In this document: one piece after another, positions 5,851 to 27,469 of the stretch | Numbering within the stretch: the stretch's first letter is position 1 | How the letters are laid out: each line of letters starts with the position of its first letter | NCBI RefSeq assembly: GCF_008806595.1 | Contig: NZ_VZRB01000019.1 | Span: 62,001-126,000, forward strand | Length of the DNA: 64,000 nucleotides | Origin: Streptomyces luteolifulvus | GTDB lineage: Bacteria > Actinomycetota > Actinomycetes > Streptomycetales > Streptomycetaceae | Reading direction: 5' to 3' | The notes under the pieces: model-generated | Seen by the model: only the letters and a program-made list of their open reading frames with translations | What the model was told of the DNA's origin: nothing | Databases searched by the model: none | Program-made: the position numbers and the translations under genes

Positions 5851-6841
5851 TCAGCGGCCGCTCCGCATCCGGGCACGGAAGGCCCGACGATGCTCCCTTT
5901 GGATTTGCTGCAGGGGGTCGCCGTCGAGTTCCCAGGGCCAGCTGGTGGCGACTGCCGAGATCGCCTCGAAAACCGGCCATGCCTCGCGCGGGCGCGTGGC
6001 TTGCATCAGGACGTAGGCGAGGAGGTTGAGGTCGGCGAGTGCGGCTGCGTGCGTGAGGTAGCCCGGCTGCGGCCAGGTCTTAAGGGCTTGGTCGACGACC
6101 GCGAGCTCCTGCGGCTGGTTCCAGTGCCGGTGCGCGGTCAGCGCCGGGATCCCGCCTGCCGTCAGGACCCGGCGGTACCGGTCGAGGGAGGAGGTCAGGC
6201 CGAGGGCTGTCACGGGACTCCCTGAAGGCACGGTGATAGCGACGGAGTCGAGGAATTGCACGGTCAGGGCGTTTGAGCCGCATTCCTCCGGAGAGACGTA
6301 GTGCAGCATCTGCAGGTGCGCTTCCCGATTCCAGGGGTCGCGTGCCTTGACGGCTTCCCACACCGGCTGCACGGCCCTCCCGGGGGCTCGCTGCAGCCGC
6401 TGGCAGCTGAGCAGGGCAATCCAGGGGGCAGGGTCCGGGGGCGCGAGCTCCGCCGCGCCCCCGGACCACGTTTACGGTGCCTTCGATGTCGAGGCCCGCG
6501 CCGGTGGAGCGGGCCCGGTGGAGGTCGGCGAACACCTGGAGGAGCAGGGCGTCGGCGTTGGTGGGATCCCGGTTTCGCCACTGGCGGGCGAGGACGGGGG
6601 CTTGGGGCAGGGCGCTCAACACGAGCAGGCGGTGCATGCGCCGGTCCCAGTCGTGTCCGGGGTCGCGCAGTGCCTGTTCGATGGGGTAGGTGAGGGCGCC
6701 ACGGTCGTTGGCTTCGGCCAGGTTGTCGCCCTGGGCGGCGATCTGGGCCTCAAGGTGGGTCAGGGAGCGGGCGAGCTGGCTGTCGTCCAGTGGTGGGCAC
6801 AGTCGGCGCGGTGGTCTTGGGCGTCGTGTTCGGGGCCACAT
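5851..6841 (-). pseudogene. helical (TPR-like) protein with one frameshift
   Basis: Two frames join to about 330 residues. The N-terminal part runs from ATG 6841 (with AAGGA upstream) through LEAQIAAQGDNLAEANDRGA and LLLQVFADLHRARSTG. The C-terminal part runs through VWEAVKARDPWNREAHLQML and LALGLTSSLDRYR-like helices to 5851. The break is at 6458-6462, where the coding strand has GGGGG; removing one G restores a smooth reading (VVRGAAELAPPDPAPW). It may be a real pseudogene or a sequencing error. The alpha-helical pattern resembles TPR-like proteins of Streptomyces; function unknown. It is the last gene of the minus-strand run from 10670. Confidence 0.6.
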
Positions 6842-6955
6842 GGTCACCTGGTCCTTCCATCCGGTGGTGTGGTGCGGCAGCGGACCGGTTTTCCGCTGCC
6901 GCACGGCGGCAATCCGGCTGCCCTTGGGCCTGGGGGGAGGCGTCCCCGCAAGGGC

Positions 6956-7873
6956 TCAGCTCACCTTGGCCGGGGCCGCGTCCATGGCTGTCGCGGCGTG
7001 CAAAGCCGCTCCGAGGAGCCCAGCGTCCGCGCCCAGGGGGAGATCTCCACGGCTGGTGCGGTCCGCCAGGCCAGCCCTAGTTGCAGGCTCCTGCGGACAG
7101 GCGCGGCGAGGCGGTCTCCGGCCGCTGTCATTCCGCCCGCCAGGACGATGCGTTGGTGATCGAGCAGGAGGGTCGAGGTGACCAGTGCCCGGCCGAGGGC
7201 GTCTGTCGCCTCGGCCCAGACGCGGGCGGCGACAGGGTCGGTGTCCAGGCTCGCGGTGATGTCGGCGGCGGTGTCCGCGCTGTTGCCGGTGCGGGCGGTA
7301 GCGGCGGACCAGGGCGCCGGCTGCCGTGTAGGCCTCGACGCATCCGCGCTGGCCGCAGGCGCACAGTTCGCCATCGGCGTGGACAGGGATGTGGCCGAAC
7401 TCCCCGGCAGTGCCGGTCCCGCCTCGTGTCAGACGGCCGTTGCTGACGATGCCCGCGGCCAGGCCGGTGCCGAGCACGACCACGAGCAGGTCGCTCAGGC
7501 CGGCGCCGAGCCCGTGCTGCCGCTCGGCCAGGCAGGCGGCCCGGACATCGTGCTCGAGGGTGACGGGCAGGCGTACGGCGTCGGCGGCAGCTGCGGCCAG
7601 GGGTGTGTCGCGCAGGCCGAGGTTCGATGCGAAGCGGATGATCCCGGCGTCGGTGTCGATCAGCCCGGGAGCGCAACGGCCGACGGGCCTGACACCAGGG
7701 CGGATGAGGACGGTGGCCGCCTTGATGACCGCAGCAGTGACGGCGTCGGGCCCCTTCGGGACAGGGGTGGGCAGCCGTAGCGTTTCCTCGGCGATCCCGT
7801 GGGCCCCGTAGCGGGCTGCTTTGATCGTGGTGCCGCCGAGATCGACGGCGACCACGTGTGCGGGGCGTGTCAT
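6956..7873 (-). pseudogene. ROK-family sugar kinase with two compensating frameshifts
   Basis: The N-terminal part has the ROK ATP motif VAVDLGGTTIKA, the catalytic region NLGLRDTPL and LEHDV, and the zinc-binding ROK signature CACGQRGCVEAY. After residue about 195 the frame goes wrong until the last 25 residues (LGADAGLLGAALHAA). The missing middle (TGNSADTAADITASLDT, IVLAGGMTAAGDRL) is intact in another frame between about 7294 and 7038. An extra C near 7293-7295 and a missing C near 7036-7040 on the coding strand explain it. If read correctly it would be a glucokinase/N-acetylglucosamine-kinase-type enzyme. Its ATG overlaps the nagB stop. Confidence 0.75.
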
Positions 7874-8652
7874 CAGTACCTTTGGCCGACGGGCTTGTGG
7901 CGGGCGATGCAGCGGTAGTAGGCCTGCTGCTCCAGCCGGGAGGCGGCGATTTCGTCCACCACGACGGTGACGTGGGGGTGCAGCTGGAGGACCGAGGCGG
8001 GGCAGGCCGCGGTCACGGGGCCTTCGACGGCAGCGGCCACCGCGCGGGCCTTGTGCGGGCCGGTGGCGACGAGCACGAGGTGGGATGCGTCGCCGATCGT
8101 TGCGAGGCCCTGGGTGATCACGTGGCGGGGCACGCCCTCGATGCTGCCGAAGAAGCGTGCCTTGTCACGGCGGGTGTCGTCGGTGAGGGTCTTGAGCCGG
8201 GTGCGTGAGGCCAGTGAGGAGCCCGGCTCGTTGCAGCCGATGTGACCGTTGACCCCGATTCCGAGTATCTGCAGGCCGACGGGCCCGGCCTCGGTGAGGC
8301 AGCGCTCGAAGCGGCGCGCTTCCGCAGCGGGGTCGGGCGCTGTGCCGGACGGCAGATGGAGCCGCGCAGGGTCGAGGTCGACATGATCGGCCAGTTCGCG
8401 TTGTATGACGTGGGCAAAGGAGTGCGGGTGAGCGGGCGGGAGACCGACATACTCGCCGAGCAGGAAGGCCTCGACGCCGGCGAAGCTGAGGCCCTCGTGG
8501 CGATGGCGGCGGGCCAGGTCCCGGTAGACGCCCAGGGGCGAGGAGCCCGTGGCCAGGCCCAGCGTCCTCATACCGTCCGCCAGCGCCTGGTGGACGATGC
8601 CGGCGACCGTGCGGTCGGCGTCGTCCGCGTCAGGGCGGATCACCACCTCCAT
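7873..8652 (-). CDS. nagB: glucosamine-6-phosphate deaminase-like protein with altered active site
   Basis: 259 residues, full length for NagB, which converts glucosamine-6-phosphate to fructose-6-phosphate and ammonia in aminosugar use. Conserved blocks are present: LGLATGSSPLGVY near the N-terminus, GIGVNGHIGCNEPGSSLASR in the middle, and PASVLQLHPHVTVVVDE near the end. The key block normally DEYVGLP reads GEYVGLP (GGC codon): the Asp that acts as general base in the E. coli enzyme (Asp72) is Gly. The second acidic position is Asn, as in many Gram-positive enzymes. It may have lost or changed activity. The start is 1 base after the truncated EI gene, and the stop overlaps the ROK kinase start. 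Confidence 0.88.
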   Translation of the reverse strand: MEVVIRPDADDADRTVAGIVHQALADGMRTLGLATGSSPLGVYRDLARRHRHEGLSFAGVEAFLLGEYVGLPPAHPHSFAHVIQRELADHVDLDPARLHLPSGTAPDPAAEARRFERCLTEAGPVGLQILGIGVNGHIGCNEPGSSLASRTRLKTLTDDTRRDKARFFGSIEGVPRHVITQGLATIGDASHLVLVATGPHKARAVAAAVEGPVTAACPASVLQLHPHVTVVVDEIAASRLEQQAYYRCIARHKPVGQRY

Positions 8653-8653
8653 C

Positions 8654-9115
8654 TCAGACCTCCCGCTGTTCGCTGCCTGCGGGCAGGAACGTCCGGCTCA
8701 TCCGCTGCGCGGTGGCGCGCGCCGCGTCCGGTTCCCTGGCGTAGAGCGCACTCGCGGCCAGGTTCTTGCACTGCTCCGAGGTGAGACGGGCAAGTGCACC
8801 ACGGACCGCGGCGACGGCCGGGGCGGCCATGGAGAGGCTGCTTGCACCCAGCCCGGCAAGGACGGGGGCAAGCAATGGGTCGGCGGCCACGTCACCGCAT
8901 GCGTCGGCGCTTGCCCTTCCGCCGTCCGCAAGGGTGGACAGCTGCGCGGTCACTTCGGCCAGGGCCGGTCGTATCCGCTGGACTTCGTGGGCGGGGTTCT
9001 CCCCCGGCGCTTGTTCGGGATCGGGGATGACCGGCGGCGTCATGCGGGCCAGGGGTGCACACGGCAGCCCGGGGCTGACGCCGTAGCCGGTCATCGTGGT
9101 GGGGGTGGGGCTCAC
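8654..9115 (-). CDS. ptsI: internally deleted PTS enzyme I (mini-EI)
   Basis: 153 residues from a GTG start overlapping the HPr stop. The first 50 residues resemble the EI N-terminus (GYGVSPGLPCAPLARM). The last 80 resemble the EI C-terminus: DACGDVAADPLLAPVLAGLG with the conserved Cys region, then SSLSMAAPAV. Normal EI is about 550 residues; roughly 400 are missing, including the phosphorylated-His domain and most of the PEP-binding barrel. It cannot act as a normal EI. The frame across the junction is clean and the gene keeps its coupled place in the operon, so either a selected small protein or a deletion remnant is possible. Confidence 0.75.
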   Translation of the reverse strand: MSPTPTTMTGYGVSPGLPCAPLARMTPPVIPDPEQAPGENPAHEVQRIRPALAEVTAQLSTLADGGRASADACGDVAADPLLAPVLAGLGASSLSMAAPAVAAVRGALARLTSEQCKNLAASALYAREPDAARATAQRMSRTFLPAGSEQREV

Positions 9116-9378
9116 GCGTCGAGTTCCTTGCTCAGCAAGTCGGCCAGTTCGTCCAGGACGGCCTCGGCTTGTTCGCCTTCTGCCGCCAGGGTGACCTGGT
9201 CGCCGTAGCCGGCGGCGAGCGTCATGACGCCGAGGACGCTGTCGGCGGCCACTGGGTGCTTGCCCGCGGTGGCGATCGCGACCGGCAGGGGCGCTCGGGA
9301 GGCGGCCTGGACAAAGGTGGCGGCGGGCCTGGCGTGCAGGCCGCTGCGAAAGCCGGTGGAGACGACGCGCTGCGCCAT
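9112..9378 (-). CDS. ptsH: HPr phosphocarrier protein
   Basis: 88 residues, the normal HPr length. The active-site His is in GLHARPAATF (His15-type) and the conserved Ser region reads AADSVLGVMTLA (Ser46-type). HPr takes phosphate from EI and passes it to EIIA. The start is ATG behind AAGGATT. It lies between EIIC and the truncated EI in one minus-strand operon. Because the neighbouring EI is disabled, it would need a housekeeping EI from elsewhere. Streptomyces usually has one general HPr, so this looks like a pathway-specific paralogue. Confidence 0.92.
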   Translation of the reverse strand: MAQRVVSTGFRSGLHARPAATFVQAASRAPLPVAIATAGKHPVAADSVLGVMTLAAGYGDQVTLAAEGEQAEAVLDELADLLSKELDA

Positions 9379-9425: not shown

Positions 9426-10670
9426 TCACGCCGCGGGCTGGGGCCGGAGGTCAGAATCGGTTTCCGGGTTGTCCTGGTTGTCGTCCTCGCGGCCGGGGGT
9501 GCGCAGGTTGAAGCGGCGGATGACGAAACGGAACAGCACGTAGTAGAGGACGGCGTAGCCCAGGCCGATGGGGATCAGCAGGAGCGGGTCGGTGGCCTTG
9601 CCCCAGTTGAGGACGTAGTCGATGAGGCCGGAGGAGAAGGTGAACCCGTGGTGGATGTCGAGGGCGTTGACCAGCGCGAGCGACGTTCCCGTCAGCACGG
9701 CGTGGACCAGGTACAGGGGCCAGGCGACGAAGAAGAAGGCGAACTCGATCGGCTCGGTGATACCGGTGAGGAAGCTGGTGAGTGCGGCCGAGAGCATGAT
9801 CCCGCCGACGGCCTTGCGGTGCTCGGGCCGGGCCTCGCGCCAGATGGCCAGGGCGGCAGCGGGAAGGGCGAACATCATGATCGGGAAGAACCCGGTCATG
9901 AAGATGCCTGCCTCGGGATCGCCGGCGAAGAACCGGTTCAGATCCCCGTGCTTGCCCTCGTAGTCGCCGAGGATGAACCACACGACGGAGTTGAGGATGT
10001 GGTGCAGGCCGAACGGGATGAGCAGCTTGTTCGCCGTTCCGTAGATGCCGCCGCCGACGATGCTGTTCTCGTCGACGGCCTCGCCGACAGCGGTGAGGCC
10101 GTTGTTGAACAGCGGATACACCAGGCTCATCAGGACCCCGACCACCAGTGCGGTGAAGGCGGTCAGGATGGGCACGAGCCGGCGGCCGCTGAAGAAGCCG
10201 AGATAGGGCGGTAGCGCGGTGCGGTAGAAGCGCTGCCAGAGCATCGCGGCCAGCAGACCGATGACGATGCCGCCGAGGACTCCGAAGTTGACGACGGCCT
10301 GCTCGCCCGCGAGGTCCTTCTTCCCCTCCAGGACGACCGGGGACATCGCGGTGAAGACGCCGTCGAGGACGAGGTAGCCGACCACCGCGGCCAGTGCTGT
10401 GGAGCCGTCCGCCTTCTTGGCGAACCCGATCGCGATGCCGACCGCGAAGATCAGCGGCAGGTGCGTGAACAGGGCTCCGCCGGCGGCGGAGATCACGTGG
10501 GCGGTGTCCTTCAGGGCGGAGAACCGGCCCAGGACGTCGTCCTGCCCCAGCCGGAGCAGCAGACCCGCGGCGGGCAGCGTGGCGATCGGCAGCATCAGGC
10601 TGCGGCCGAGTTTCTGCAGGCCGGCCAGGCCCGGACGGCGGCCTGCGGATGTGGACGTGTCGGTGCTCAT
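9426..10670 (-). CDS. PTS enzyme IIC, N-acetylglucosamine/glucose class
   Basis: 414 residues with about ten membrane helices. The family motif GITEPIEFAFFF is present, as are the His-containing IPFGLHHILNSVVW and the sugar-site region LDIHHGFTFSSG. The length and the lack of an attached IIB domain match the NagE2-type permease of Streptomyces, which works with separate EIIB and EIIA proteins; those are encoded at 26.8-27.5 kb here. It transports sugar with phosphorylation across the membrane. First gene of the minus-strand operon EIIC-HPr-miniEI-NagB-ROK; operator-like site 3 is about 92 bases upstream. The exact sugar is not certain, but the NagB and ROK neighbours suggest an aminosugar. 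Confidence 0.92.
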   Translation of the reverse strand: MSTDTSTSAGRRPGLAGLQKLGRSLMLPIATLPAAGLLLRLGQDDVLGRFSALKDTAHVISAAGGALFTHLPLIFAVGIAIGFAKKADGSTALAAVVGYLVLDGVFTAMSPVVLEGKKDLAGEQAVVNFGVLGGIVIGLLAAMLWQRFYRTALPPYLGFFSGRRLVPILTAFTALVVGVLMSLVYPLFNNGLTAVGEAVDENSIVGGGIYGTANKLLIPFGLHHILNSVVWFILGDYEGKHGDLNRFFAGDPEAGIFMTGFFPIMMFALPAAALAIWREARPEHRKAVGGIMLSAALTSFLTGITEPIEFAFFFVAWPLYLVHAVLTGTSLALVNALDIHHGFTFSSGLIDYVLNWGKATDPLLLIPIGLGYAVLYYVLFRFVIRRFNLRTPGREDDNQDNPETDSDLRPQPAA

Positions 10671-10986: not shown

Positions 10987-11715
10987 GTGACTGCACAGCA
11001 GATCGCCGGCAAGGGCATGCTGCCCAAACACGCGCAGCTGCGCGCGATCCTCGTCGACATGTGCACCAACCAGCTCTCCCCCGGCGATGCACTGCCCAGC
11101 GAGCGGAAGTTGTGCATCGACCACGGGGTCAGCCGGGTGACGGTGCGCGAAGCCCTGGGCCAGCTGGTGGCGGAGGGCCTGGCCGTGAGGGTGCACGGGC
11201 GCGGCACCTTCGTCGCCGAACGCACCCACCGCTCAGAACTGGGCCTGGCCTCCTTCCACGAGGACATGCGTCGGCTTGGGCTGGAGCCGGGCACCGTGGT
11301 CCTCTCCATCAACCAGGAGCCCCCCACGCCGGCCACCGCCCAAGCCCTGCGGATGACCGAGGAACAGCAGGCCTGGCACGTCCGCCGCCTCCGGCTGGCC
11401 GACAGGACGCCCATCTGCGTCGAGGACGCCTGGTACGACGCGCAGCTCCTGCCCGATCTGGACTCGGTCGATTTCACTGCCTCCGTCTACGACACCCTCG
11501 ACTCCCGCTTCGGACTCCCCGTCGACCGAGCGGAACAGACCGTCGGAGCCGGCCCTGCCTCCACGGAGACAGCCGCACTGCTGGGCATCCCCAAGGGAAC
11601 TGCCGTCATGACCTTCGACCGCATCGCCTTCAGCGGCGAGCAGCCCGTCGAGCACGCATACTCCTGGTTCCGCGCCGACCGCTACCAGCTGCACATGACC
11701 CTCTCCGATCACTGA
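10987..11715 (+). CDS. GntR/HutC-family regulator, DasR paralogue
   Basis: 242 residues. The N-terminal winged helix (about 10-75) shows LPSERKLCIDHGVSRVTVRE and GLAVRVHGRGTFVAE, the GntR DNA-binding pattern. The C-terminal UTRA effector domain includes LASFHEDMRRLGLEPG, LLPDLDSVDFTASVYDTL and ALLGIPKGTAVMTFDRIAF. The fold matches DasR, which responds to glucosamine-6-phosphate-type ligands, but sequence differences show a paralogue. The start is GTG behind GTGGGG. It is divergent from the EIIC operon and has operator-like sites on both sides of its promoter. I infer that it binds the 22-bp motif spread over the window. A degraded relative lies at 26400-26600. Confidence 0.92.
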   Translation: MTAQQIAGKGMLPKHAQLRAILVDMCTNQLSPGDALPSERKLCIDHGVSRVTVREALGQLVAEGLAVRVHGRGTFVAERTHRSELGLASFHEDMRRLGLEPGTVVLSINQEPPTPATAQALRMTEEQQAWHVRRLRLADRTPICVEDAWYDAQLLPDLDSVDFTASVYDTLDSRFGLPVDRAEQTVGAGPASTETAALLGIPKGTAVMTFDRIAFSGEQPVEHAYSWFRADRYQLHMTLSDH

Positions 11716-12025
11716 CCCCGCTACGGCCCAACTGCCCCCCGACCGGACACAGGGGACGACAGGATCCCCCTCGTCACCAGCGGCTGAGCCCGTCCTACCT
11801 CCAAGCGTGGGTCTGAGCTGGTCATTCGTAAGATCGGCGGACCCAGAGGTTCTGGGTATGGCTGTGAGCCTGTCGCCGTTGGATGGCTCAAAGAACTTGG
11901 CCGCCCGGAGCCCCGCGACGACTCGACCGCTCATCGGGATACGTGACTCGATCGCTGTGCAGGCCAACGACGGCGAGGTCGTCTGCGGGACCGTGTGTGG
12001 CGAGCTGGCGGAGGTGACCGTACCC
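11716..12025. other. gap without recognisable gene
   Basis: Nothing assignable: no full gene, no operator-like site and no clear terminator. It ends at an IS110 fragment. Confidence 0.5.
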
Positions 12026-12156
12026 AGATCCGGGCCGGAGTGGACATCGGCAAGGAACACCACCACTGCGTGGTGTTCGACGAGCGGGGTGAACGCCTCC
12101 TTACCCGCCGGGTCCTCGACGACGAACCAGCGCTGCTGAAGCTGATCGCAGACGTA
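12026..12156 (+). pseudogene. IS110-family transposase N-terminal fragment
   Basis: Reads IRAGVDIGKEHHHCVVFDER, then GERLLTRRVLDDEPALLKLI, the start of an IS110-type transposase with the first catalytic Asp in VDIGKEHH. Homology stops after about 43 residues and the frame is then lost. Confidence 0.75.
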
Positions 12157-12287
12157 TGTGCTCTACTCACGCGGTCTTCCACAACGCCCTGGACATCGCC
12201 GCGCACGCACCTCACGGCCAGGGATCAAAACCACCTACTGAGCCGTGGACCGCGCCCTATCGTGCGGGTGGAGTTGAGATCTTGATC

Positions 12288-12398
12288 TCGAACCAGGCAC
12301 TGCGGCCGGCCTGGCTGGGCGTCGGTGGAGCCGTCGGATCATCAGCGTGAGGGCGGCCCAAGTGGTCAGTGATTCGCTCATCTCGGGCAGACGTTCGT
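12288..12398 (-). pseudogene. possible IS5-type transposase C-terminal fragment
   Basis: The minus strand reads EMSESLTTWAALTLMIRRLH, similar to the tail of Streptomyces IS5-group transposases (WAA..LMIRRL). Too short for certainty. The rest of 12157-12508 holds nothing I recognise. Confidence 0.35.
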
Positions 12399-12508
12399 CA
12401 TCGCGGCACGAGGGTCCGCGTGATCCACGACCACGAGCACGCTCGCACTACACCGCTCGATAACGTCCTGCCGCTCGCCAGCAGTCGTGGACCCCACTTC
12501 CCTGATGA

Positions 12509-14074
12509 TTGAGCGAGTTCAAGCGTCAGGGGAGGCGTTGGTTGAACGAGTGGCATGTGGTGCGTGTGCCGGATCCGGAACGCTGGGGGACGCTGCCGCC
12601 TGAGGGGGTCCTGGGGGTACAGGACCTGCCGGCGGCGGTCGCCTGGATCGGTCTGCGGCCGGGTGATCCGGTGTTCGTGGCGCCGGACGGCACGGTCGAC
12701 CGGGATCTGCTGGACTTCGTCCGCTCCCACGAGTTTCGGAACCTGGAGCGGGAGACGAAGCGGAACTACGCGACGGACATCCGCCCGCTGCTGACCTTTC
12801 TGTCTGCGCGGCGGGTGCCGTGGCGGAGGGCGACGCGGCAGGACCTGGCGGACTACCGGCACTGGAGGTGCCGGGCTGCGGAGAATCCCGGCCGGATCGG
12901 CGGGACGAAGTGGGACCGGGAGGCGTCCGCGTTCACCAAGCTGTTCCGATGGGCAAAGGTCTACCCGCTGCCGGTGGACGTCTCGCGGAGCGAGGACCGG
13001 GCTCCGGACTCGGTGAGCTCGCGGGTGCTGTGGCTGACGCCGCGGACCTGGGGCTTGTGGTCGGACATCGGGCTGCGCGGCCACAGCCGCGCCGGGTTTC
13101 CGGCACCCGGGTGGGAGTCACGGACGGAGCTGCGCAACACCAGCTTCGTGCAGCTGCTGCTCAGCTCCGGCCTGCGCCGGCAGGAGGGCGGCGCGCTGCT
13201 CACTTTCGAGTTGCCCAGCCGGCGCCTGCGCTTTGGCCGCTACTGCCACGGTCACGTCGCCGCGGCGCTCACCCGGGCGAAACAGAGCCGGGTCTTCTAC
13301 GCGTCCATCGACGCGGTCGGCCAGGTCGAGGCTTACGTGGAGTCGGAGCGGGCCTGGGCGGTGCAGCGCGCCCAGGCGGCGGGCCGCTACGACCGGCTCC
13401 CCATGATGCGGCTGGTCACGAAGGTGACCCGCGGGCTGAAGCCGCGGATCGAGTGGGTCGACGCCGACGGTATCGTCGGCGGACAGGAACTTGGCCGCCT
13501 GGACTGGCGCGAGCGGCAGTGGCTGTTCCTCGAAGGGCCGGACGGGCCGGAGCCTGCATGGTTGTGGCTGACTGAGCAGGGCCTGCCCATGGTCCCGGAC
13601 CGGTGGAACGGCGTGTTCAGGGCCGCGAACCTGCGGTGCGAAGAGGTCCTGCTCACCGAGGAGGAGCGGCAGATCAGCCGGGAGTTCCGGCTGGCGGAGG
13701 TCCGCGGGAAGAGCCCGCACGCCACCCCGCATGCCGCGCGGCACTCGTACGCCCTCTACATGCTGGTGGTGCTGAACCAGCTGATGGACTCCCGCTACGG
13801 GCTCACCGCCGCGGACCGGCGGGACTTCGCCCTGCTGTTCGGTGACCCGTGGTGGCTGGTGAAGACCCTCCTCGGGCACGCGGACGTGGAGATCACGAAA
13901 CGGCACTACCTCGCGCCAGTCGCGCACCTGCAGCTGGAGTCGATCCTCGCGGCCGCCGAGACCGACGACGACCAGGAGCAACAAGTCGAGGACCTGGACG
14001 GCGTGTTCGCACGGCTGGCCCGGGAGTCGGAGGGCATCCAGGACATCGACCGGCTGCTGGAGGCAGGCTCGTGA
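12509..14074 (+). CDS. tyrosine recombinase A of a three-recombinase cassette
   Basis: 521 residues. The catalytic domain has LLSSGLRRQEGG (first Arg), PHAARHSYALYM (His-x-x-Arg) and LLGHADVEITKRHYLAP (GH and nucleophilic Tyr), so the Arg-His-Arg-His-Tyr set looks complete. The N-terminal half carries a core-binding region (ERETKRNYATDIRPLLTFLS). The TTG start at 12509 is the longest choice; a later GTG is possible. The stop overlaps the next gene by GTGA. The operon of three large recombinases and one small protein recalls Tn554-type tnpABC elements. Confidence 0.85.
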   Translation: MSEFKRQGRRWLNEWHVVRVPDPERWGTLPPEGVLGVQDLPAAVAWIGLRPGDPVFVAPDGTVDRDLLDFVRSHEFRNLERETKRNYATDIRPLLTFLSARRVPWRRATRQDLADYRHWRCRAAENPGRIGGTKWDREASAFTKLFRWAKVYPLPVDVSRSEDRAPDSVSSRVLWLTPRTWGLWSDIGLRGHSRAGFPAPGWESRTELRNTSFVQLLLSSGLRRQEGGALLTFELPSRRLRFGRYCHGHVAAALTRAKQSRVFYASIDAVGQVEAYVESERAWAVQRAQAAGRYDRLPMMRLVTKVTRGLKPRIEWVDADGIVGGQELGRLDWRERQWLFLEGPDGPEPAWLWLTEQGLPMVPDRWNGVFRAANLRCEEVLLTEEERQISREFRLAEVRGKSPHATPHAARHSYALYMLVVLNQLMDSRYGLTAADRRDFALLFGDPWWLVKTLLGHADVEITKRHYLAPVAHLQLESILAAAETDDDQEQQVEDLDGVFARLARESEGIQDIDRLLEAGS

Positions 14075-15800
14075 CCGGGCGGGGACGGCGGGCCGTCCTG
14101 CCGCCGGCCGACCACCGCACCGAGCCGCTCCTGGCCCCCGACGGGCTCGTGGTGACGGTCGTCAACAACGCGGGATACACGAAGGCGTTCGACTTCGCTG
14201 AGCTGCCGGTCCCCGAGCCGATGCAGGGGTCGCTGGCGACGGTGTTCGCCGCCCGGGCGCCAGGATGGACCAGCCACGCGACCGCCCAGGGCTACTGGAT
14301 CGCGCTGAACGCGTTCGCCCGGTTCGTCGCCGAACTGGACCAGCCTCCCGAGGACCTGGGGGATCTGACCACCGCCCAGCTCAAGCGCTGGCGCGCCCGG
14401 CACATCGCCACCAACACCGGCAAGAGCGTGCTGCGGCAGATCAGGCCGTTGCTGACGGCAGATCCGCGGCTGGCCAGCGGGCCGGTCGCGGAGGAACTGG
14501 CCCGGCGCATCCCCAGCCCGAGGCCGGTCGAGAAGTCCTATGACAAGCAGGAACGGGAGCGGGTGGTGCTGGCCGCACAGCGGCAGTTCCGGTCCGCGCT
14601 GCTGCGGATCCGGGAGAACACACGCCTGCTGGAGAGCTGGCGCGCCGGCGAGCTGGTGGAGGGCAGCCGGGAATGGCGGATCGGCCGGATCCTCGATCAC
14701 CTCGCGCGCACCGGCGAAGTGCCCACCACGATCACCTCGGGCGGACATCACTGCGTGAAGAACCGCGTGCTGCTGGGAGGCAGCGGAGCGGAGTCCACAT
14801 GGGGCCGGTTGTTCTTGTCGCGCTCGGAGCTCACGGCACTGGCGGTGCTGCTGACCGACCGGTTCGGGTGGAATCTCTCCGTCTACGACTGCCTGCCGGC
14901 ACCGACCCGGGCGCCGTCGGTCGGCGAGACAGCCTCGGTGACCTACCAGCTGCAGATCGAAAAGCGCCGCAAGGGCCGCGGCCACTGGTTCTCCACGGAG
15001 AACATCACCGACTCCGGGGCCGACTCCGCCGGGCGGCTGATCACCCAGGCGCTGGAGGCCACCGCTCACGGCCGTGCACTGGCCGCACGCCTCGATCCAG
15101 GCATACGGCTGCTGATGGTCGCGCGGATGCACTACCCCACGCGCCGGCACCAGCACACGGAGCGGCCCCGGCCGGTGGGCCCGCTGGCCTTCGGTGTCGG
15201 CCATGGCGATGCGCAGTGGTGGGCGCAACGGCACGGGCTGGGCGGAGCTCCGTTCCGGCGTACCCGACGGACGACCGTGACGCGCGAGGGCCGCCCCCTT
15301 CAACACTCCCCAGGCACGCATCAAAGCGTCTACATGCTCCCCGACGAGCAGGTGCAACGCGCCTCACAGAGCGTCTTCGAGGCCGGCGCCAGCGAGGCCC
15401 TCGCCCAGGCACGGGCCGTGGTGTTCGCCGGCCACGTCGTGGGCGCGCCGGATCCTGCCCACCAGCAGACGGTGACCGGGGACTGCGCGGACGAGACGTC
15501 CAGCCCCTGGCCTGGCCCGGAGGGCGGCTGCACCGCAGACTTTCTGCTCTGCCTGGCCTGCCCCAACGCCCGTGTCCACCCTGGGCATCATCCCCGGCTC
15601 GCCCACCTGCACCAGGTCCTGCAGAGCCTGCGATCCCCTCTGCCCGATGGCGCGTGGCAGCAACGATGGGGCGAGCACGCACTGCGGCTCGATGACCTGC
15701 GCGACAAGGTCGGGCCCACGGCCTGGACAGCGGCCCTGGCCCGGGTGGACGACGCTGACCGCACTCTGATCCACCTCCTGGTGAAGGGAGAACTCACCCC

Positions 15801-15804
<4 letters not shown>
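14071..15804 (+). CDS. recombinase B of the three-recombinase cassette
   Basis: 577 residues from GTG 14071, overlapping both neighbours by GTGA. The N-terminal part (TSHATAQGYWIALNAFARFV, AQLKRWRARHIATNTGKSVL) resembles the SAM-like DNA-binding domain of tyrosine recombinases. The C-terminal part is hard to match: I do not see a clear His-x-x-Arg or Gly-His motif. It has a Cys/His group CTADFLLCLACPNARVHPGH that could bind zinc. Its place between two clear recombinases suggests it acts with them. It may be a degenerate family member with a structural or DNA-binding role; this is inference. Confidence 0.75.
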
Positions 15805-18340
<2,536 letters not shown>

Positions 18341-18691
18341 CGCGTGCGGCGGTTTGGGCACGCGAGAGCGGCCGCGGGCGCACCATGACACCGGGCCCGA
18401 CGTCACCACCCCGGTTAGAGCGAGCCTTCGATCCCCGATCCAGGAATCGCTTCGGTCCAGCGGCGCCGGGCTTCGCAGCGCATGGCCGGGAGCCTGTCCA
18501 GAGGACTGTGGCTGTGCGACGATGGCCGGACAAGAGATTGACCGGTGTCCTGCCGCCGCGGTTGCGGGGGGCCGGTTCACGGGTTCCGGAAATCGCCCCT
18601 TTCACGGGCATCCTGTCCCGCCATCGCCGCCGGGACGCCCTTGCGGGCGCGGCCTTGGGCTCATGACCCCCTTAACGAGGGGGCGCTCACC
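18341..18691. other. gap after the recombinase cassette
   Basis: No gene recognised. The right end of the recombinase element should be in or near this stretch, but I could not define terminal repeats or a target-site duplication by eye. Confidence 0.4.
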
Positions 18692-19030
18692 TTGCTCATC
18701 ACGACCACGATCGATGACGGCGCGGCTGTCATCAGCCCGCGCGGAGAGATCGACTTCGACGCCCTGCCTGGCCTGCTCGCCGCCGCCCGAGAGCTGCCGC
18801 AGTCCGTCACCCAGGTGACCTGGGATCTGCGTCAGGCCCTGTTCATGGACATCGCCGGCCTCCACCTGCTCATCCAGCAGCGGCTGGCATGCCTGGACAC
18901 GGACCGGACACTGACCGTCACCGGGCTGAGCCAGCAGCCGCTGAGGCTGATACGACTGGCTCAGCAACTCTTCCCCGCCGGGGACTGGGGCGACTTCCTT
19001 CCCGGCGGCCTATGGGCGACTGCCGCCTGA
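18692..19030 (+). CDS. STAS-domain (anti-anti-sigma-like) protein
   Basis: 112 residues from TTG 18692 behind a strong GAGGGGG. STAS pattern: VISPRGEIDFDALPGLLAAA, then QALFMDIAGLHLLIQQ. In SpoIIAA/RsbV the motif is D-S-S/T-G with the phosphorylated Ser; here it is D-I-A-G, so the usual switch Ser is missing. This suggests a constitutively binding antagonist or a different partner. It faces the SpoIIE-type phosphatase gene that converges on it. Confidence 0.82.
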   Translation: MLITTTIDDGAAVISPRGEIDFDALPGLLAAARELPQSVTQVTWDLRQALFMDIAGLHLLIQQRLACLDTDRTLTVTGLSQQPLRLIRLAQQLFPAGDWGDFLPGGLWATAA

Positions 19031-19178
19031 TGATGGCCAGTTGCCGGGTCCGGCTCGGTCCTCCCGGTTGGGCAGACGCCGTCGCGGTGAGGGGTGGGAG
19101 AAAAGGGCCCGGAGCCTCAACAAGCGACTGTTTCCCGAACCTGGTGTCGGCGTACGCCTCGTCGGTGGCCGTGTCGGT

Positions 19179-20417
19179 TCAATCCATGGTGGCGAGGTGG
19201 TCGGCGGCGCCGCCGCGCCACTCGGTCAGGAAGAGCGTTGCGTCGTCGCTGGTACTCCCCCCGCGTTGCTGTTTCAGGCTGTGGGACAAGGAGCGCACCG
19301 TCGCTCGCACTCCTTCTCCCGCCTGCTCCGTGCGGTTGACGCAGTCGATGAGTTGTTCCTCGCCGAACTGCTCGCCGCCGGCCTCGTGTTCCTCGATCAC
19401 CCCGTCGGTGAAGCACAGCACACGGTCGCCGCGCTGCAGCGTCAGCTCGCTGATCTGGGGTTGTTCGCCGCCGAAGCCGACCGGCAGGGTGGTGGGGCCG
19501 TGAAGTTGCCGGATGACCTCGCGGTTGCGGATCAGCAGCGGTGCGGGATGGCCTGCGTTGACCCACTGCAGATGACCGGTGGTGATGTTCAGGTGCATCA
19601 TCTGCGCGGTGACGAAGTGGTCGGGCCCGAACTGCTCGGCGATGGCCCGGTCCATGAACGCGTAGATCTCGGCCAGGCCGATGCTGGCGCGTCGGGCGTG
19701 CCGGTAGGCACCGATGGCGACGGTCGCCATCGTGGCGGCGTCCAGGCCGTGGCCCATCGCGTCGATCATGGCGAGGTGCAGGATGTCGCCGTTGAGCGCG
19801 TAGTCGAAGCTGTCCCCGGCGACGTTGTAGGCAGGCTCGAGGATGCCGGCCACCGCGACCTGCGGTACGGCCATCGCCAGCGGCGGCATCAGGGACCACT
19901 GGATCTCCGCGGCCACGCTCATCGGTTCCAGGCGGCGGGCGAGGAAGAACTGGTCGGTGTAGCTGTGCTTGGTGACCAGCATGTCGGCAACGAGGCCGGC
20001 GAGCCTGCGCAGAAGACGCCGGTCGTTGTCATCGACGGCGTCCAGGGTGAGCGCCATCACCCCCACCTGGTCGCTGCCGTCCAGCAACGGCAGGTACATC
20101 CGGACTCCCTCGGCCTGCGGCACCTCGACCGGGGTCGCACGCAGGAAGGCGGTGCCCGCGTGGGAGTCATCGATCGGCTCGGGCTCGCCGACGACCAGCC
20201 GCGTGCCGGGCAGGGGCACCAGCTGCTGCTGCCCGTAGTCCTGCAAGAGGATGGAGACGTCCCGGCCACCGACCCGGCTCATCTCCTCCGCGATCAGCGG
20301 GGCGATCAGCTGCGGCGGCATCTCATGTGCCCGGTCGAGCAGTACGCCCAACAGCCGTTCACCGAAGCCTTCCGACCGGTCCACCGCGCTGTTGTCAGGC
20401 CGTTCACCGTCCGCCAT
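19179..20417 (-). CDS. SpoIIE/RsbU-type PP2C phosphatase with sensor domain
   Basis: 412 residues from ATG 20417. A GAF-like sensor region (about 55-170) is followed by a SpoIIE PP2C domain. Visible metal-binding motifs are VAGDSFDYALNGD, MIDAMGHGLDAATM, VNAGHPAPLLI, LCFTDGVIEEH and TSDDATLFL. Family role: dephosphorylation of STAS antagonists to release sigma factors. A STAS gene converges on it and an RsbW-like ATPase gene lies at 5.2 kb. A C-terminal copy of this gene persists as debris at 22701-23040. Confidence 0.88.
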   Translation of the reverse strand: MADGERPDNSAVDRSEGFGERLLGVLLDRAHEMPPQLIAPLIAEEMSRVGGRDVSILLQDYGQQQLVPLPGTRLVVGEPEPIDDSHAGTAFLRATPVEVPQAEGVRMYLPLLDGSDQVGVMALTLDAVDDNDRRLLRRLAGLVADMLVTKHSYTDQFFLARRLEPMSVAAEIQWSLMPPLAMAVPQVAVAGILEPAYNVAGDSFDYALNGDILHLAMIDAMGHGLDAATMATVAIGAYRHARRASIGLAEIYAFMDRAIAEQFGPDHFVTAQMMHLNITTGHLQWVNAGHPAPLLIRNREVIRQLHGPTTLPVGFGGEQPQISELTLQRGDRVLCFTDGVIEEHEAGGEQFGEEQLIDCVNRTEQAGEGVRATVRSLSHSLKQQRGGSTSDDATLFLTEWRGGAADHLATMD

Positions 20418-20591
20418 ACCCGCGTCGTCCTTGTCTGCCTCCAGTGGTTTCACCGGGCACGGTGGACGCCCGTCTCGATGACCCCGCGGACCCGCTCGAA
20501 GACCCACTGACGCGATCTGTACACACGGACTCCTGACACGACCGTGGTCAACCCGCACAGCCTGCCCCGGCCAACCAGCCCTACGAGCCCA

Positions 20592-20945
20592 TTACGCCAA
20601 CAGCGGCATGTCACACCCGGCCACAGCTGGCGCGCTCCTCCCATGAGGGCGTGAGGTCATGGCCGTCAGATCTCCGTCGGCATGGCTTTCGGTGCGGCTG
20701 CCGACCGGCGATCTGCTGCTCGTCAGCCAGGAGCGGGCGGGTCCGGCCGGCGTTTCGGTGGCGACCGTGAGATGGAGCCTGGGGCCGCCGCCCGGGGCCG
20801 GGTAGCTGCGCTGCTCAGTCCCGGCGATGCAGTGCCGCAGGGCCTCGGCCACCGCACGATAGGTCTCAGGAGAGGCCGCGACAATGCGGACTTCTGCCCG
20901 TCCGGTCGCCCGCAGGGCCTCGGTGCCGCTCTTGATCGTTCTCAA
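20592..20945 (-). CDS. small paralogous protein A
   Basis: 117 residues from a TTG start behind AAGGA. The core RAEVRIVAASPETYRAVAEA, then GTEQRSYPAPGGGPRLHLTV, is clearly related to the protein at 23665-23916. The C-terminal 30 residues have no counterpart there. The function is unknown; the family always sits near DUF5994 genes in this window. Last gene of a minus-strand group with a small membrane protein and DUF5994. Confidence 0.7.
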   Translation of the reverse strand: MRTIKSGTEALRATGRAEVRIVAASPETYRAVAEALRHCIAGTEQRSYPAPGGGPRLHLTVATETPAGPARSWLTSSRSPVGSRTESHADGDLTAMTSRPHGRSAPAVAGCDMPLLA

Positions 20946-20996
20946 GGGAGTGCTGTCCTTTTGGCGGGGGCGGGGAGCCGGCCGGCGGAAGGTCCG

Positions 20997-21206
20997 TCAT
21001 CGGGCGATGCCCGTGTGGTCGACCGGGGAGGCCGGCGTGGGCGGCGGCCTGTGGTGCTTGCCGCGACGTCGGCCGACGCCGGGCAGGACGTCGCTGTAGT
21101 GGTGGGCGGCGATGCGTGCGTCGTGCTGGGCGTTGAGCAGATGGATCAGGCGCACGCCCACGGCGACGGCGATGAGCAACGCCGCGATGAAGACGATGGT
21201 CCCCAT
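20997..21206 (-). CDS. 69-residue membrane protein
   Basis: ATG 21206, 5 bases after the DUF5994 stop. One N-terminal helix MGTIVFIAALLIAVAVGVRL followed by a basic tail. Likely an inner membrane protein co-expressed with the DUF5994 gene. No family recognised. Confidence 0.6.
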   Translation of the reverse strand: MGTIVFIAALLIAVAVGVRLIHLLNAQHDARIAAHHYSDVLPGVGRRRGKHHRPPPTPASPVDHTGIAR

Positions 21207-21211
21207 GACGG

Positions 21212-21793
21212 TCACCCCTGGGTGTTTCCGGGCGCGGGCTCGGGCATGACGGTCAGCCCGATGTGCCCGTAGGGCGACATGCACGCCCCGCCCTCGGCCT
21301 CCCAGGCGTCTTCCCAGTCCCGGCTGTCTCGCATGCCGCGTCCTATGGCGGCCTCGTTGGCCATCAGGACACCTGCCTTGAGGACGCTGCCGGGGATCGC
21401 GGCCGCGGCCATCAGCCGGGCCGCGGCGGCGGGCTCGGTCTCCGGCGGGATCACCAACAGGTCCCAGCGGCCGACAGTGAAGGAGAGCAGGATCAGCTTG
21501 TCCGCGTCCTGTTCGGTGAACCATCCGACGTGCACGCTGCGGCCGCCGTCCACAGGCACCTTGCGGGGGATGACGGGCCAGCGGCTGGGATTCACGGTGA
21601 CGTGGGTGATGCGGCCCCAGGGATCATGGAGGGCCGCCGTCAGCGGCGGAAGCTCCGCGGTCAGATCGCGGCTGTAGGGCCACCAGGCGCCATCGAGCTG
21701 GCCTGCGAGTGTGGTCTTCGGTGTGAGCGACAAGCGCACCGGAAGCCTTGGGGCGAGGTCGCGCGGCGTGGTGCGGTCGAGGGTCGTGGTCAT
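21212..21793 (-). CDS. DUF5994 family protein, copy 1
   Basis: 193 residues. Family hallmarks: LDGAWWPYSRDLTAELPPLT (about 33-52), WGRITHVTVNPSRWPVIPRK and GRWDLLVIPPETEPAAAARL. The function of DUF5994 is unknown; the proteins are common in Streptomyces, often in multiple copies near regulators. It has the longest C-terminal tail of the copies in this window. First gene of a three-gene minus-strand group. Confidence 0.82.
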   Translation of the reverse strand: MTTTLDRTTPRDLAPRLPVRLSLTPKTTLAGQLDGAWWPYSRDLTAELPPLTAALHDPWGRITHVTVNPSRWPVIPRKVPVDGGRSVHVGWFTEQDADKLILLSFTVGRWDLLVIPPETEPAAAARLMAAAAIPGSVLKAGVLMANEAAIGRGMRDSRDWEDAWEAEGGACMSPYGHIGLTVMPEPAPGNTQG

Positions 21794-22046
21794 GGTGCGG
21801 ACCTGCCCCCGGGCTGCCCGTCGGCAGCCCGGTGTTTGTTGATCGCCGGGAACGGCACCTGCGTGGAAGCTGGTGTTCGAAATGCTCCCGGTCCTTTAAC
21901 TCTACTCCTGCACGATGCCCCAAACCGTTTTGTGACCAGGCGCTTTCGGCAGTACGGCCACAGGCCGGCGCAGCGACGACGAGCGGCGGCGCGCAAGATC
22001 CGTGGTACGGCCCTGACGGCGGACGGCCGTCAGGCAGCGATGTTCC

Positions 22047-22230
22047 TCAGGTGAGGCTCCCGGCTGCATCCCCTCGGCCGCCAAACGCTGCGTCGGCCTC
22101 CGCCACGGTGCCATGGACCTGCAGGACCTGATCGGCGCCCGTCATCTCCAGGATCCGCAGCAGCGGCTGCGGCACACACGCCAGCACCAGCTCGACATCG
22201 CTCAACGCGGCCCGCCGGGAAGCCCTGAGC
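22047..22230 (-). pseudogene. STAS-domain C-terminal fragment
   Basis: The minus strand reads LVLACVPQPLLRILEMTGAD, then VLQVHGTVAEADAAF, the last helices of a STAS antagonist. The N-terminal part with the phosphorylation site is missing and the upstream frame is unrelated. Confidence 0.55.
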
Positions 22231-22364
22231 AGCAAACGGCCCCGGTGAAACCGCCGGGGCCGTCCTTTCAGGCGCAACACGTGAGAGTGCGCAACCCACA
22301 CTCCACGGTATACCTGCTGACCGGGCCCAGCAGCCGGCAGCGTCCGGGCGGTGGCAGAGTGCCG

Positions 22365-22613
22365 CTATTCCGCATTACCGCGCCACTGTCCCTGGACACG
22401 GAACCAGAGTCCGGGAGCGTAGATCGATTCGACGACAGCGGCTTCGCCTTTGGTCACCTTGAGGATCCGCAATGCGCCGCTCGGAAGCAGGTCGTACTCG
22501 TACGTGGCGGGCGACTCACCTTCGGTGATGTCGGCGTAAGTGATATCTGCAGCCGCCAGCTCCGCGTATTCCTTGGGGGGCCGGTTCTCCACCAGCTTGA
22601 TGAACACGCTCAT
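22365..22613 (-). CDS. 82-residue acidic protein of unknown function
   Basis: Starts at ATG 22613 (MSVFIKLVENRPPKEYAELA). The composition is soluble, with alternating strands such as YEYDLLPSGALRILKV and GLWFRVQGQW. No family recognised. It lies between a STAS remnant and a phosphatase remnant, but itself looks intact. Confidence 0.55.
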   Translation of the reverse strand: MSVFIKLVENRPPKEYAELAAADITYADITEGESPATYEYDLLPSGALRILKVTKGEAAVVESIYAPGLWFRVQGQWRGNAE

Positions 22614-22700
22614 ACCTCGACGATAGATCCCTCGCGGTTTTCTCGCGTGACATGCCAGAGTCACCGCCCGCGGCCGCATCACCTGGCGGGCGGTATCGGC

Positions 22701-23040
22701 TCACTCCAGGGTGGCAAGGTGGTCGGCGGCACCCTCGCGCCACTCGATCAGGAAGAGGGTCGCGTCGTCGCTGGTGATCCCGCCCCGCTTCCGGATCAGG
22801 GTGTGGGAGAGGGAGCGCACCACCGCCCGAACCCCTTTCTCGGCGTGCTCGATGCGGTTGACCCAGGCGATGAGTTGCTCCTCGCCGAACTGCTCGCCGC
22901 GGACATCGTGCTCCTCGATCAGCCGTCGGTGAAGCACAGCACCCGGTCGCCGACTTGGAGCGTCTGCTCGCTGAGCTGGGGCTCGTCGCCGCCGAAGCGG
23001 ACGATGTGGAGCTCGACGCACGGGTCATTTCGGGCTGCTT
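22701..23040 (-). pseudogene. SpoIIE-type phosphatase C-terminal remnant
   Basis: In one frame IVRFGGDEPQLSEQTLQVGD leads to RVLCFTDG. In the next frame EEHDVRGEQFGEEQLIAWVN and TSDDATLFLIEW follow to a stop at 22701. This matches the end of the phosphatase at 19179-20417, ending with nearly the same residues (ADHLATLE against ADHLATMD). The catalytic N-terminal two thirds are gone and one frameshift is present. Confidence 0.75.
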
Positions 23041-23109
23041 CGACACCGCGAACATCCCTGGTACGGGACCGGCCCGACGGTCGCCTCGGCTGACCGCCGT
23101 CACGTCTCC

Positions 23110-23485
23110 GACGCTGCCCGGTCAGTGCCGGTGTCAATGAGGATCTGTTCGGCCGGAGTCACGTTGTCGGCGCGGACGGCTTCGGCCATCGCGGCGCGCG
23201 CCGCGTCGGGCGTCGCATGCGGCGGGATCACGAGGTCGGCAGTTCTTCCCAAGCGGCGGTGTCCAGGCCGATACGTGTGATCGGCCCAAGGTGCTCGGTC
23301 AGCGCGGCGATCAGCGCGGGAAGCTCGACGGCGATGTCACGTGACCGAGGCCACCATGCCCCGTCGAGAACTCCCTGCCGGTCGTGAGTCGTCTCCAGCC
23401 GTATGACAGCCGTCCCGGCCTTCACCGCCTGGTGGACGGTGTCCGGCAGGAGCCTCGTCACGCGTGGGGAGTCGGCGTCGGGCAT
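23110..23485 (-). pseudogene. DUF5994 copy 2 with internal deletion
   Basis: The N-terminal part has VLDGAWWPRSRDIAVELPAL and LGPITRIGLDTAAW. The frame then stops, and a different frame gives DLVIPPHATPDAARAAMAEA. About 40 residues between the two conserved blocks are missing, so the copy is broken. Confidence 0.7.
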
Positions 23486-23664
23486 CGCACTCGCCTACCT
23501 GTCTGCCAGCGAGAAACGCAAAGTAGGTTCTTCGTTTCACGGTACTCCGCGGCTCGCGGCGGCCGGGAAGCACGGCGGGCGCACGGGTGGGCTGCAAGAA
23601 GCGCCGGAGTAGAGTGAAAGATCGAGTCCACTGAGCAGATCCGTGCCCACACAACGAGGTCGCC

Positions 23665-23916
23665 ATGCAGCCCGCGGAAACACCCTCGGACGGGCACGCC
23701 GACGTACGCATCGTCGCCGCCTCCCCCGAGGTCGCCCGTCGCGTCGCGGAGGTTCTCCGCCGCTGCTTCGCCACCACCGAGCAGCGCAGCTATCCTGCGG
23801 GCTCCACGGGAGGGACGCGTCTCCAACTCACCGTGGACACCACGCGCGCGGCGGAACCGGCGCGGTCCTGGCTGGAGACCAGCCGCTCCTCGGGGGAGGA
23901 CCGCCGACCGCAGTGA
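23665..23916 (+). CDS. small paralogous protein B
   Basis: 83 residues from ATG 23665. The core ADVRIVAASPEVARRVAEVL, then TTEQRSYPAGSTGGTRLQLT, is shared with the protein at 20592-20945. No function known. It is followed by a DUF5994 gene in the same direction, mirroring the arrangement at 20.6-21.8 kb. Confidence 0.7.
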   Translation: MQPAETPSDGHADVRIVAASPEVARRVAEVLRRCFATTEQRSYPAGSTGGTRLQLTVDTTRAAEPARSWLETSRSSGEDRRPQ

Positions 23917-24069
23917 GGCGATGCCCAGGAGCGGTCCTTTCGGCCTCTTCGGGGAGTAGCGTGAACTCATTGGGAGCATTTCGCACATCGGCCCCGATGC
24001 CGGTGTCGTTCCTGGTGAGCAACGGTACCGGGCAACTGCCCACGCGCAGGGGTCCGGAGACGGGTTCGT

Positions 24070-24597
24070 ATGATGTCCGCGACCACCGACCATCTCCCGC
24101 TGTATGCCGTGCCCTTCAGGGTGCCGACCGCGCGCCTCGCACTGAAAGCCGTGAGTCCCTCCCCCGGGCGGGGCGAGTTGGACGGGGCCTGGTGGCCTCG
24201 CTCCCGTGACCTGACACATGAGCTCACCGCGCTGGCCGACGTACTGGACCCGTTGTGGGGACGGATCACCCGTGTCGCCGTCAACCCCCGCTACTGGCCG
24301 ATCATCCCGCGCAAGATCTTCGTCAACGGCCATGTGGTGAAGGTCGGTTGGTTCACCTCTGAGCTGGATCCGCACAAGATCCTGCTGCTGTCCTACACGG
24401 CCGGCCGCTGGGACCTCCTGGTGATTCCGCCGGAGACCAGTGCCCCCTCGGCCGCCCGGCTGATGGCCGCCGCGAGCGCGAGCACCGGCCCGCAGCTGAC
24501 CGCGACCGCTCTCATGACGGCGGAGCAGGCCAACGACACTTCCTCGTCGTACGCGGCCGACACCGGACGGCCCGGTCGACTGGTGGCGGGGATGTGA
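24070..24597 (+). CDS. DUF5994 family protein, copy 3
   Basis: 175 residues. Conserved blocks are GELDGAWWPRSRDLTHELTA, WGRITRVAVNPRYWPIIPRK and GRWDLLVIPPETSAPSAARL. ATG 24070 is followed by a second Met, either of which could start. Close to copy 1 in sequence. Confidence 0.82.
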   Translation: MMSATTDHLPLYAVPFRVPTARLALKAVSPSPGRGELDGAWWPRSRDLTHELTALADVLDPLWGRITRVAVNPRYWPIIPRKIFVNGHVVKVGWFTSELDPHKILLLSYTAGRWDLLVIPPETSAPSAARLMAAASASTGPQLTATALMTAEQANDTSSSYAADTGRPGRLVAGM

Positions 24598-24660
24598 CGA
24601 ACGGCGTCACCGCCCTGGCCGTCAGTGGGGATGGGCCGGGCAGTCTGTGAGGGGGCCGGA

Positions 24661-25059: not shown

Positions 25060-25102
25060 GACGGGCTCCTGGCAACTGGCATACGCGGATGAATGTGTGG
25101 CG

Positions 25103-25327: not shown

Positions 25328-25545
25328 GCGGGGCTCCTCGGCCTCGGTTGCGGATGGCGCGGCCAGGGTCAGGCCCGTGATGGGAGCCGCGAGGACGAGA
25401 CCGGTCCGATACCGGCATGCGAAGGTCCCTCGCTGCCTTCACCGTACTCCCGCACGCTCCGAAACGAGACGGGCCGATCACGTGGCACCGCGTTGACGCG
25501 GACCGTCGCCGGACATCGACTGGCAGCTGGCAGCACGACGTAGGG

Positions 25546-25830: not shown

Positions 25831-25960
25831 TGCGCGGACAGCCGGTTCGGCGGGATCTGCTTCACCTTGCGGTGGCCCAGATGGAAGGCGGCAGAGAGCT
25901 TCCGATGTGAACACAACGACTTGACAGGGAACCGGACCAACATGCCTCAAGGAGTGCGTC

Positions 25961-26777: not shown

Positions 26778-27008
26778 ATGTCCAAAGCGCAGTTGATCGT
26801 CGAAGGGCTCGGCGGTGCCGGGAACATCGCCGACATCGAGGCCTGCATCACCAGGCTCCGCACCGAGGTGAACGACGCGAACGCCGTCGACGTCGGCGCC
26901 CTGAAGAAGGCAGCGGCTCTGGGAGTCCTCGTCTCAGCCGGTGTCGTACAGGTGGTCGTGGGTCCGGATGCGGACTCGCTGGCCGAGGACATCAAGGAGC
27001 TGCAGTGA
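26778..27008 (+). CDS. PTS enzyme IIB, GlcNAc/glucose class
   Basis: 76 residues from ATG 26778 (MSKAQLIVEGLGGAGNIADI). The phosphorylated Cys is in EACITRLR, followed by VDVGALKKAAALGV and VQVVVGPDADSLAEDI, the usual IIB pattern. It takes phosphate from EIIA and gives it to sugar bound by EIIC. Its length matches free-standing IIB proteins that work with IIC-only permeases, such as that at 9426-10670. The stop overlaps EIIA by GTGA. Confidence 0.9.
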   Translation: MSKAQLIVEGLGGAGNIADIEACITRLRTEVNDANAVDVGALKKAAALGVLVSAGVVQVVVGPDADSLAEDIKELQ

Positions 27009-27469
27009 GACTTGCGGTCCATGCCCCGCTGTCCGGGACCCTCGCCGCGCTCGGCAACGTCCCGGACCACGTCTTCGCCGCTCAGCTGGTGGGCTCCGGA
27101 ATGGCGGTGGAGCCCGATGACGACACCGGGCCCATCGACGTCGCGGCCCCCGTCGCCGGCCAGGCCGCCACGGTACGCCCGCACGCGTTCGTCATCCGGA
27201 CCGACAGCGGGTCGGCCGTCCTGGTGCACCTGGGCATCGACACCGTCCGGCTGAACGGAGAGGGGTTCCGCACCCATGTCGCCGAAGGAGAACAGGTCGA
27301 GGCCGGCCGGAATCTGATCACGTTCGACCCCGGCGCAGTCCGCGCCCGCGGTCTGTCCGCGATGTGCCCCGTCGTCGTCCCCGACAGCGCTCCCGGATCT
27401 GCACAGGCACCGTCGACCACCGCAGTGGTGCGGGCCGGGGCACTGATGTTCACCTGGGCCGCGCCGTGA
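27005..27469 (+). CDS. PTS enzyme IIA, Crr/glucose class
   Basis: 154 residues from GTG 27005. Features: APLSGTLAALGNVPDHVFAA, GSGMAVEPDD, VAAPVAGQAATVRPHAFVI and the active-site His in VLVHLGIDTVRLNG. EIIA accepts phosphate from HPr and passes it to EIIB. In this class it can also regulate other permeases. It is translated together with EIIB and the HAD phosphatase through GTGA overlaps. Confidence 0.9.
   Translation: MRLAVHAPLSGTLAALGNVPDHVFAAQLVGSGMAVEPDDDTGPIDVAAPVAGQAATVRPHAFVIRTDSGSAVLVHLGIDTVRLNGEGFRTHVAEGEQVEAGRNLITFDPGAVRARGLSAMCPVVVPDSAPGSAQAPSTTAVVRAGALMFTWAAP

Follow-up and report, generated by a model that had tools for sequence, protein, structure and literature searches.

PTS enzyme I (EI; PtsI; TIGR01417, PF05524 and PF02896) is the closest described relative of the protein considered here, and bacterial pseudogenes, which include deletion remnants, offer a second comparison. 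In E. coli, EIN is given as residues 1-249 and contains the HPr site, and the EI C-terminal domain is said to dimerise (PMC8295985). Domain loss in PTS proteins has also been described: FPr is presented as a product of EI domain loss (PMC2405797).

The gene that we studied lies in a 64,000-nucleotide stretch of Streptomyces luteolifulvus DNA (the window) and encodes a short protein, mini-EI, which resembles PTS enzyme I in having both of its ends and in following HPr, but lacks 409 residues, including the phospho-His and the PEP-binding motifs. It is like a pseudogene deletion remnant in that a redundant gene has been internally deleted and later genes of the operon are frameshifted; unlike such remnants, it has kept its frame and its distance from the genes on either side, and this is seen in three strains. 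As in the FPr case, an EI part has been lost and another EI can probably serve; however, FPr lost a whole domain of a fusion and the rest works, whereas mini-EI consists of fragments of both domains. We believe, with a probability of about 0.82, that mini-EI is a non-catalytic leftover of a redundant EI gene whose frame was kept by chance or for nagB translation.

The open reading frame, the Pfam matches and the mapping of the junction agree on an EI-derived frame of 153 residues that begins with GTG. PF05524 matches the N end over positions 1-70 of 121 (27.9 bits; curated cut-off 24.4), and PF02896 matches the C end over positions 219-291 of 293 (31.4 bits; curated cut-off 22.8). Together with the identity of each end to the corresponding operon EI of S. 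wuyuanensis (Table 1), these matches establish descent from an EI gene; the TIGR01417 score is 42.3 bits, under the cut-off of 341.7. Relative to the S. wuyuanensis operon EI, the joint falls at codon 70-71 and 1227 nt, or 409 codons, are gone in frame. These limits (2-70 and 481-553) were reproduced when the genome was searched separately with the S. wuyuanensis EI as query. The phospho-His motif GGPTxHTAILAR (GG-x-T-x-H-T-A-I-x-A-R) falls in the deleted stretch, as do GLFRTEF and VRTLDAGxDKP, which we take to be PEP-binding motifs of the EI C-terminal barrel. The 3' part retains the conserved Cys, as ACGD here and VCGE in relatives. Without the phospho-His, the PEP site and most of either domain, mini-EI is, judged from its sequence, unable to act as an EI. 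Its GC content by codon position (0.75/0.62/0.82) is coding-like when compared with that of full EIs (0.74-0.76/0.54/0.85-0.87). An earlier note on this DNA had described a 153-residue frame with both EI ends, a retained Cys region, the absence of about 400 residues with the phosphorylated His and a position between HPr and NagB, and all of this we confirm; the HPr stop overlaps the mini-EI start as GTGA, and one base separates the EI stop from the nagB ATG. The note put the ends at the first 50 and last 80 residues. Both ends are indeed kept, but their true lengths are about 70 and 83.

Table 1. Features of the operon in the window, with the evidence for each.
Feature	Position	Strand	Evidence
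Downstream gene, broken by +1 near 6467	5851..6841	-	DNA alignment
ROK sugar kinase, broken	6956..7873	-	DNA alignment; PF00480 covers residues 8-194 only
NagB (glucosamine-6-phosphate deaminase)	7873..8652	-	PF01182, residue comparison, PDB alignment
mini-EI, internally deleted enzyme I remnant, 153 aa	8654..9115	-	ORF, Pfam ends, junction mapping
mini-EI, retained 3' part (last 83 EI codons + stop)	8654..8905	-	68% identity to S. wuyuanensis EI 481-553, DNA
mini-EI, retained 5' part (EI codons 1-70)	8906..9115	-	75% identity to S. wuyuanensis EI 2-70, cut point
HPr, 88 aa, GLHARPA motif intact	9112..9378	-	PF00381 (81.5 bits), alignment
EIIC, 414 aa, open frame	9426..10670	-	PF02378 (241.6 bits)
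Divergent GntR/UTRA regulator	10987..11715	+	PF07702, PF00392
EIIB of same cluster, displaced by insert	26778..27005	+	88% to S. wuyuanensis EIIB; PF00367
EIIA of same cluster	27005..27466	+	Comparison with S. wuyuanensis; PF00358

A deletion of this kind could be produced by an error of assembly or sequencing, since the source is a 9.03 Mb draft in 105 contigs and the one-base indels in two neighbouring genes, which rest on this one draft assembly, could be errors. We consider this highly improbable for the EI joint itself. The site lies inside a 165 kb contig, a clean in-frame joint across 409 codons is unlikely as an error, and two other genomes, one being a two-contig assembly, carry other deletions of the same gene. 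Moreover, a genome search at E <= 1e-8 did not turn up the deleted EI middle at another place; the EI query otherwise matched EI-like proteins of 36-49% identity, or parts of larger PEP-enzyme frames.

The same operon, defined by a NagB match at E <= 1e-105, was present in 5 of 392 sampled Streptomyces genomes. In two of them, S. wuyuanensis (G034; 562 residues) and G218 (557 residues), a full-length EI stands between HPr and NagB. Both contain the phospho-His and PEP motifs, with Gly for Ser before the His in S. wuyuanensis. The remaining three carry in-frame internal deletions that leave 153 residues in the window, 97 in G285 and 46 in ISL-10. The pieces retained differ: 70 and 83 codons in the window, about 44 and 53 in G285, and in ISL-10 about 40 codons and a few before the stop. 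Only roughly the first 40 codons are common to all three remnants. The deletion removed 1227 nt in the window and 1395 nt in G285; in ISL-10 the frame measures 141 nt against 1689 nt in S. wuyuanensis, a difference of 1548 nt. A related cluster in Nocardia otitidiscaviarum comprises EIIC, HPr followed by a full EI, NagB, EIIB and EIIA; EI and NagB are about 1.2 kb apart there, and ROK had no match. We infer that full-length EI is the ancestral form in this operon because S. wuyuanensis, G218 and N. otitidiscaviarum all carry it.

These comparisons bear on the two possibilities that the earlier note had left side by side, a simple deletion and a regulatory decoy. A full-length EI in this position in relatives was one of two observations, the other being a lack of expression, that it had named beforehand as together speaking against its proposal. 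S. wuyuanensis and G218 have such an EI, and this supports a simple deletion, one that in addition recurs and stays in frame. Its suggestion that related operons might encode equally short EI proteins holds in part: shortened EIs exist (97 and 46 residues), but the 153-residue form does not recur, and the three shortened operons carry three different remnants. Among the EI frames listed for the 392 genomes, with up to nine candidates scored per genome, we found no conserved mini-EI family, and the shortest EI apart from the remnants had 464 residues.

Further searches were made for the operon and for precedents. No sixth copy appeared in a draw from the family (2/394), a draw among relatives of S. 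wuyuanensis (3/395) or a second draw from the genus (5/390), all of which overlap with the first genus draw of 392, and NagB identity was below 60% in all 111 matching plasmid records. A search with HPr in GTDB genomes gave at least 312 matches, the best 80 of which were taken to a tblastn locus scan; among these 80, EIIC, HPr, EI (full or remnant), NagB, ROK, EIIB and EIIA occurred together only in the two Streptomyces copies that were already known, and N. otitidiscaviarum had the whole set except ROK. Among the papers listed for coupling-preserving gene loss, truncated EI or Streptomyces ptsI pseudogenes, none was pertinent as judged by titles and the beginnings of abstracts.

How often EI was lost can be read from trees of the concatenated GntR, EIIC, HPr and NagB of the five operons. 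The window, ISL-10 and S. wuyuanensis form a clade without G285 and G218 (support 100 in the DNA version and 92 in the protein version), within which the window groups with ISL-10 (89 and 73). Single-gene trees were weaker, and the order inside clades was not consistent among all of them. Because S. wuyuanensis and G218 are full-length and G285 falls outside the clade, G285 lost its EI independently and the deletion arose at least two times, unless transfer has restored a full EI. The window and ISL-10 could have had an initial deletion in common or have begun with separate ones. By chance, three events would all be in frame with a probability of 1/27, and two independent ones with a probability of 1/9.

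The operon EI appears in genomes that have another. The genome of the window strain encodes a 556-residue PtsI adjoining an EIIA gene, the arrangement described as crr-ptsI for S. coelicolor (PMC4398421), and, besides the remnant and PtsI, two EI-like proteins at 36-37% identity. It also has three further HPr matches and a second NagB (53% identity). A full PtsI lies outside the operon in all five genomes. Full-length EI-like matches outside the operon number 3, 2 and 2 in the genomes with deletions and 1 each in the two with an intact operon EI; with five genomes, this excess where the operon EI is deleted is suggestive only.

Each remnant also preserves its joints with the neighbouring genes. 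The EI stop sits one base before the nagB start in all five operons, and the three remnants all keep the overlap with HPr (GTGA/ATGA), the one-base gap to nagB, the ends next to the neighbouring genes and an open frame throughout. If the frame were shifted, translation of the remnant would end at least 44 nt before nagB or run into it. This geometry fits a putative dependence of nagB on upstream translation, and it suggests a stronger form of our explanation: in at least two lineages EI may have become a short translated bridge from HPr to nagB, a cis-acting leader whose coding DNA is kept for being translated and whose protein product is irrelevant. We consider this idea less likely than not. 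There are three cases, of which two or three are independent, and nagB has its own ribosome-binding-like site, GGAGG, six bases before its ATG and inside the mini-EI 3' end (the corresponding site is weaker in ISL-10). With this site within the EI end, nagB may not need coupling. In addition, the NagB proteins of the window and ISL-10 lack a conserved Asp.

Asp72 of E. coli NagB has a catalytic role. In the PDB alignment, it corresponds to residue 66, which is Gly (GGC) in the window, Ala (GCC) in ISL-10 (L039, 5774-6553) and Asp in S. wuyuanensis, G285, G218, Nocardia and the second NagB of the window genome. The residue lost in the window and ISL-10 is the conserved Asp of the DEYVGL motif; codon counts for the window NagB show no relaxation, and a literature search on NagB Asp72 gave no matching paper. 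If the change from Asp to Gly makes NagB inactive, present-day selection for nagB translation is doubtful.

Other parts of the window operon have changed as well. Alignment of the ROK DNA with four relatives places a +1 near 7295 and a -1 near 7039; with the downstream gene also frameshifted, 5851-7873 is broken, and the upstream EIIC, HPr, mini-EI and NagB are all open. The operon-end gene (328 residues at L037, 1576-2562) is present in all five operons and broken in the window, and its intact relative has no match in Pfam or NCBIfam. The best NCBIfam match of EIIC is TIGR01998 (GlcNAc IIBC), at 472.9 bits under a cut-off of 553.2. About 15 kb separate GntR from EIIB in the window (11720-26692), compared with about 0.6 kb in S. 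wuyuanensis. This insert has an integrase-like gene (12557-14074) with a weak Phage_int_SAM_1 match, and two large adjoining frames (13849-15804 and 15801-17936) without Pfam or NCBIfam matches. In G285, an in-frame internal deletion has joined EIIB and EIIA into one 127-residue frame (L040, 2229-2612), which makes it the second in-frame loss in this cluster.

Nonsynonymous and synonymous changes on the window branch were compared with those on the others in six uncorrected Fisher tests. EIIA was the only one of the six below 0.05 (12:3 vs 19:24 in the pooled others, p = 0.033, uncorrected), and against S. wuyuanensis alone its p was 0.12. We found no relaxation in GntR, EIIC, HPr, NagB and EIIB taken together (32:50 vs 70:111, p = 1.0) or in the six genes including EIIA (44:53 vs 89:135, p = 0.39). 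The window operon is decaying, as the frameshifts, the NagB change and the EIIA count indicate, but since its branch as a whole shows no relaxation by codon counts, the decay is recent or partial. The retained EI ends (16:7 in the window; 35:23 in the two full-length EIs; p = 0.61) give no sign either way. The absence of measurable relaxation, in these ends and in the pooled genes, counts against our explanation.

The codon counts of the EI ends would suit a regulatory decoy, a small and stable protein that would damp phosphotransfer by binding HPr or by forming a dimer with full EI. Such a protein would also be consistent with the open, coding-like frame, with its place between HPr and nagB, and with part of its predicted structure. 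AlphaFold2, run on mini-EI alone with an alignment of 14 sequences (mean pLDDT 71, pTM 0.54), gave ten-residue block means of 80-94 for residues 71-140, dropping to 69 and 49 at the end. However, residues 1-70 had low-confidence means of 47-64, and they are only a part of the HPr-binding domain (PMC8295985); the poor prediction of this partial EIN piece speaks against HPr binding by mini-EI. The C-terminal piece, derived from a dimerising domain, might conceivably interact with full EI. Relatives retain different, smaller pieces, and the surrounding operon is decaying. We dismissed the decoy as the main reading because the remnants share no EI segment past about 40 codons and residues 1-70 are poorly predicted; the decoy proposed in the earlier note is thus unsupported, and we regard it as quite improbable.

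Based on these results, we propose a model for the leftover EI. The operon would once have had its own EI, and a housekeeping PtsI elsewhere could feed the operon HPr instead. The spare EI lost 409 internal codons in frame in the window, and it shrank in two other strains by different deletions, with the frame, the HPr overlap and the nagB spacing kept. As long as the operon was used, selection probably removed deletions that ran into HPr or nagB, or that ended translation far from the nagB start. The window operon is now decaying further. The kept frame and spacing in three strains are real, and we infer selection for nagB translation as their cause; chance may nevertheless account for the kept frames.

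In sum, mini-EI most likely reflects the ordinary erosion of a spare gene and is not a new regulatory protein. The mildly interesting part is the parallel, coupling-preserving pattern of the deletions. If frame and spacing are not selected, the locus cautions that a short 'mini enzyme' in an operon may be no more than a deletion remnant. If they are selected, the operons would form a natural series of 562, 557, 153, 97 and 46 residues in which polar effects shape the loss of a redundant gene in an operon.
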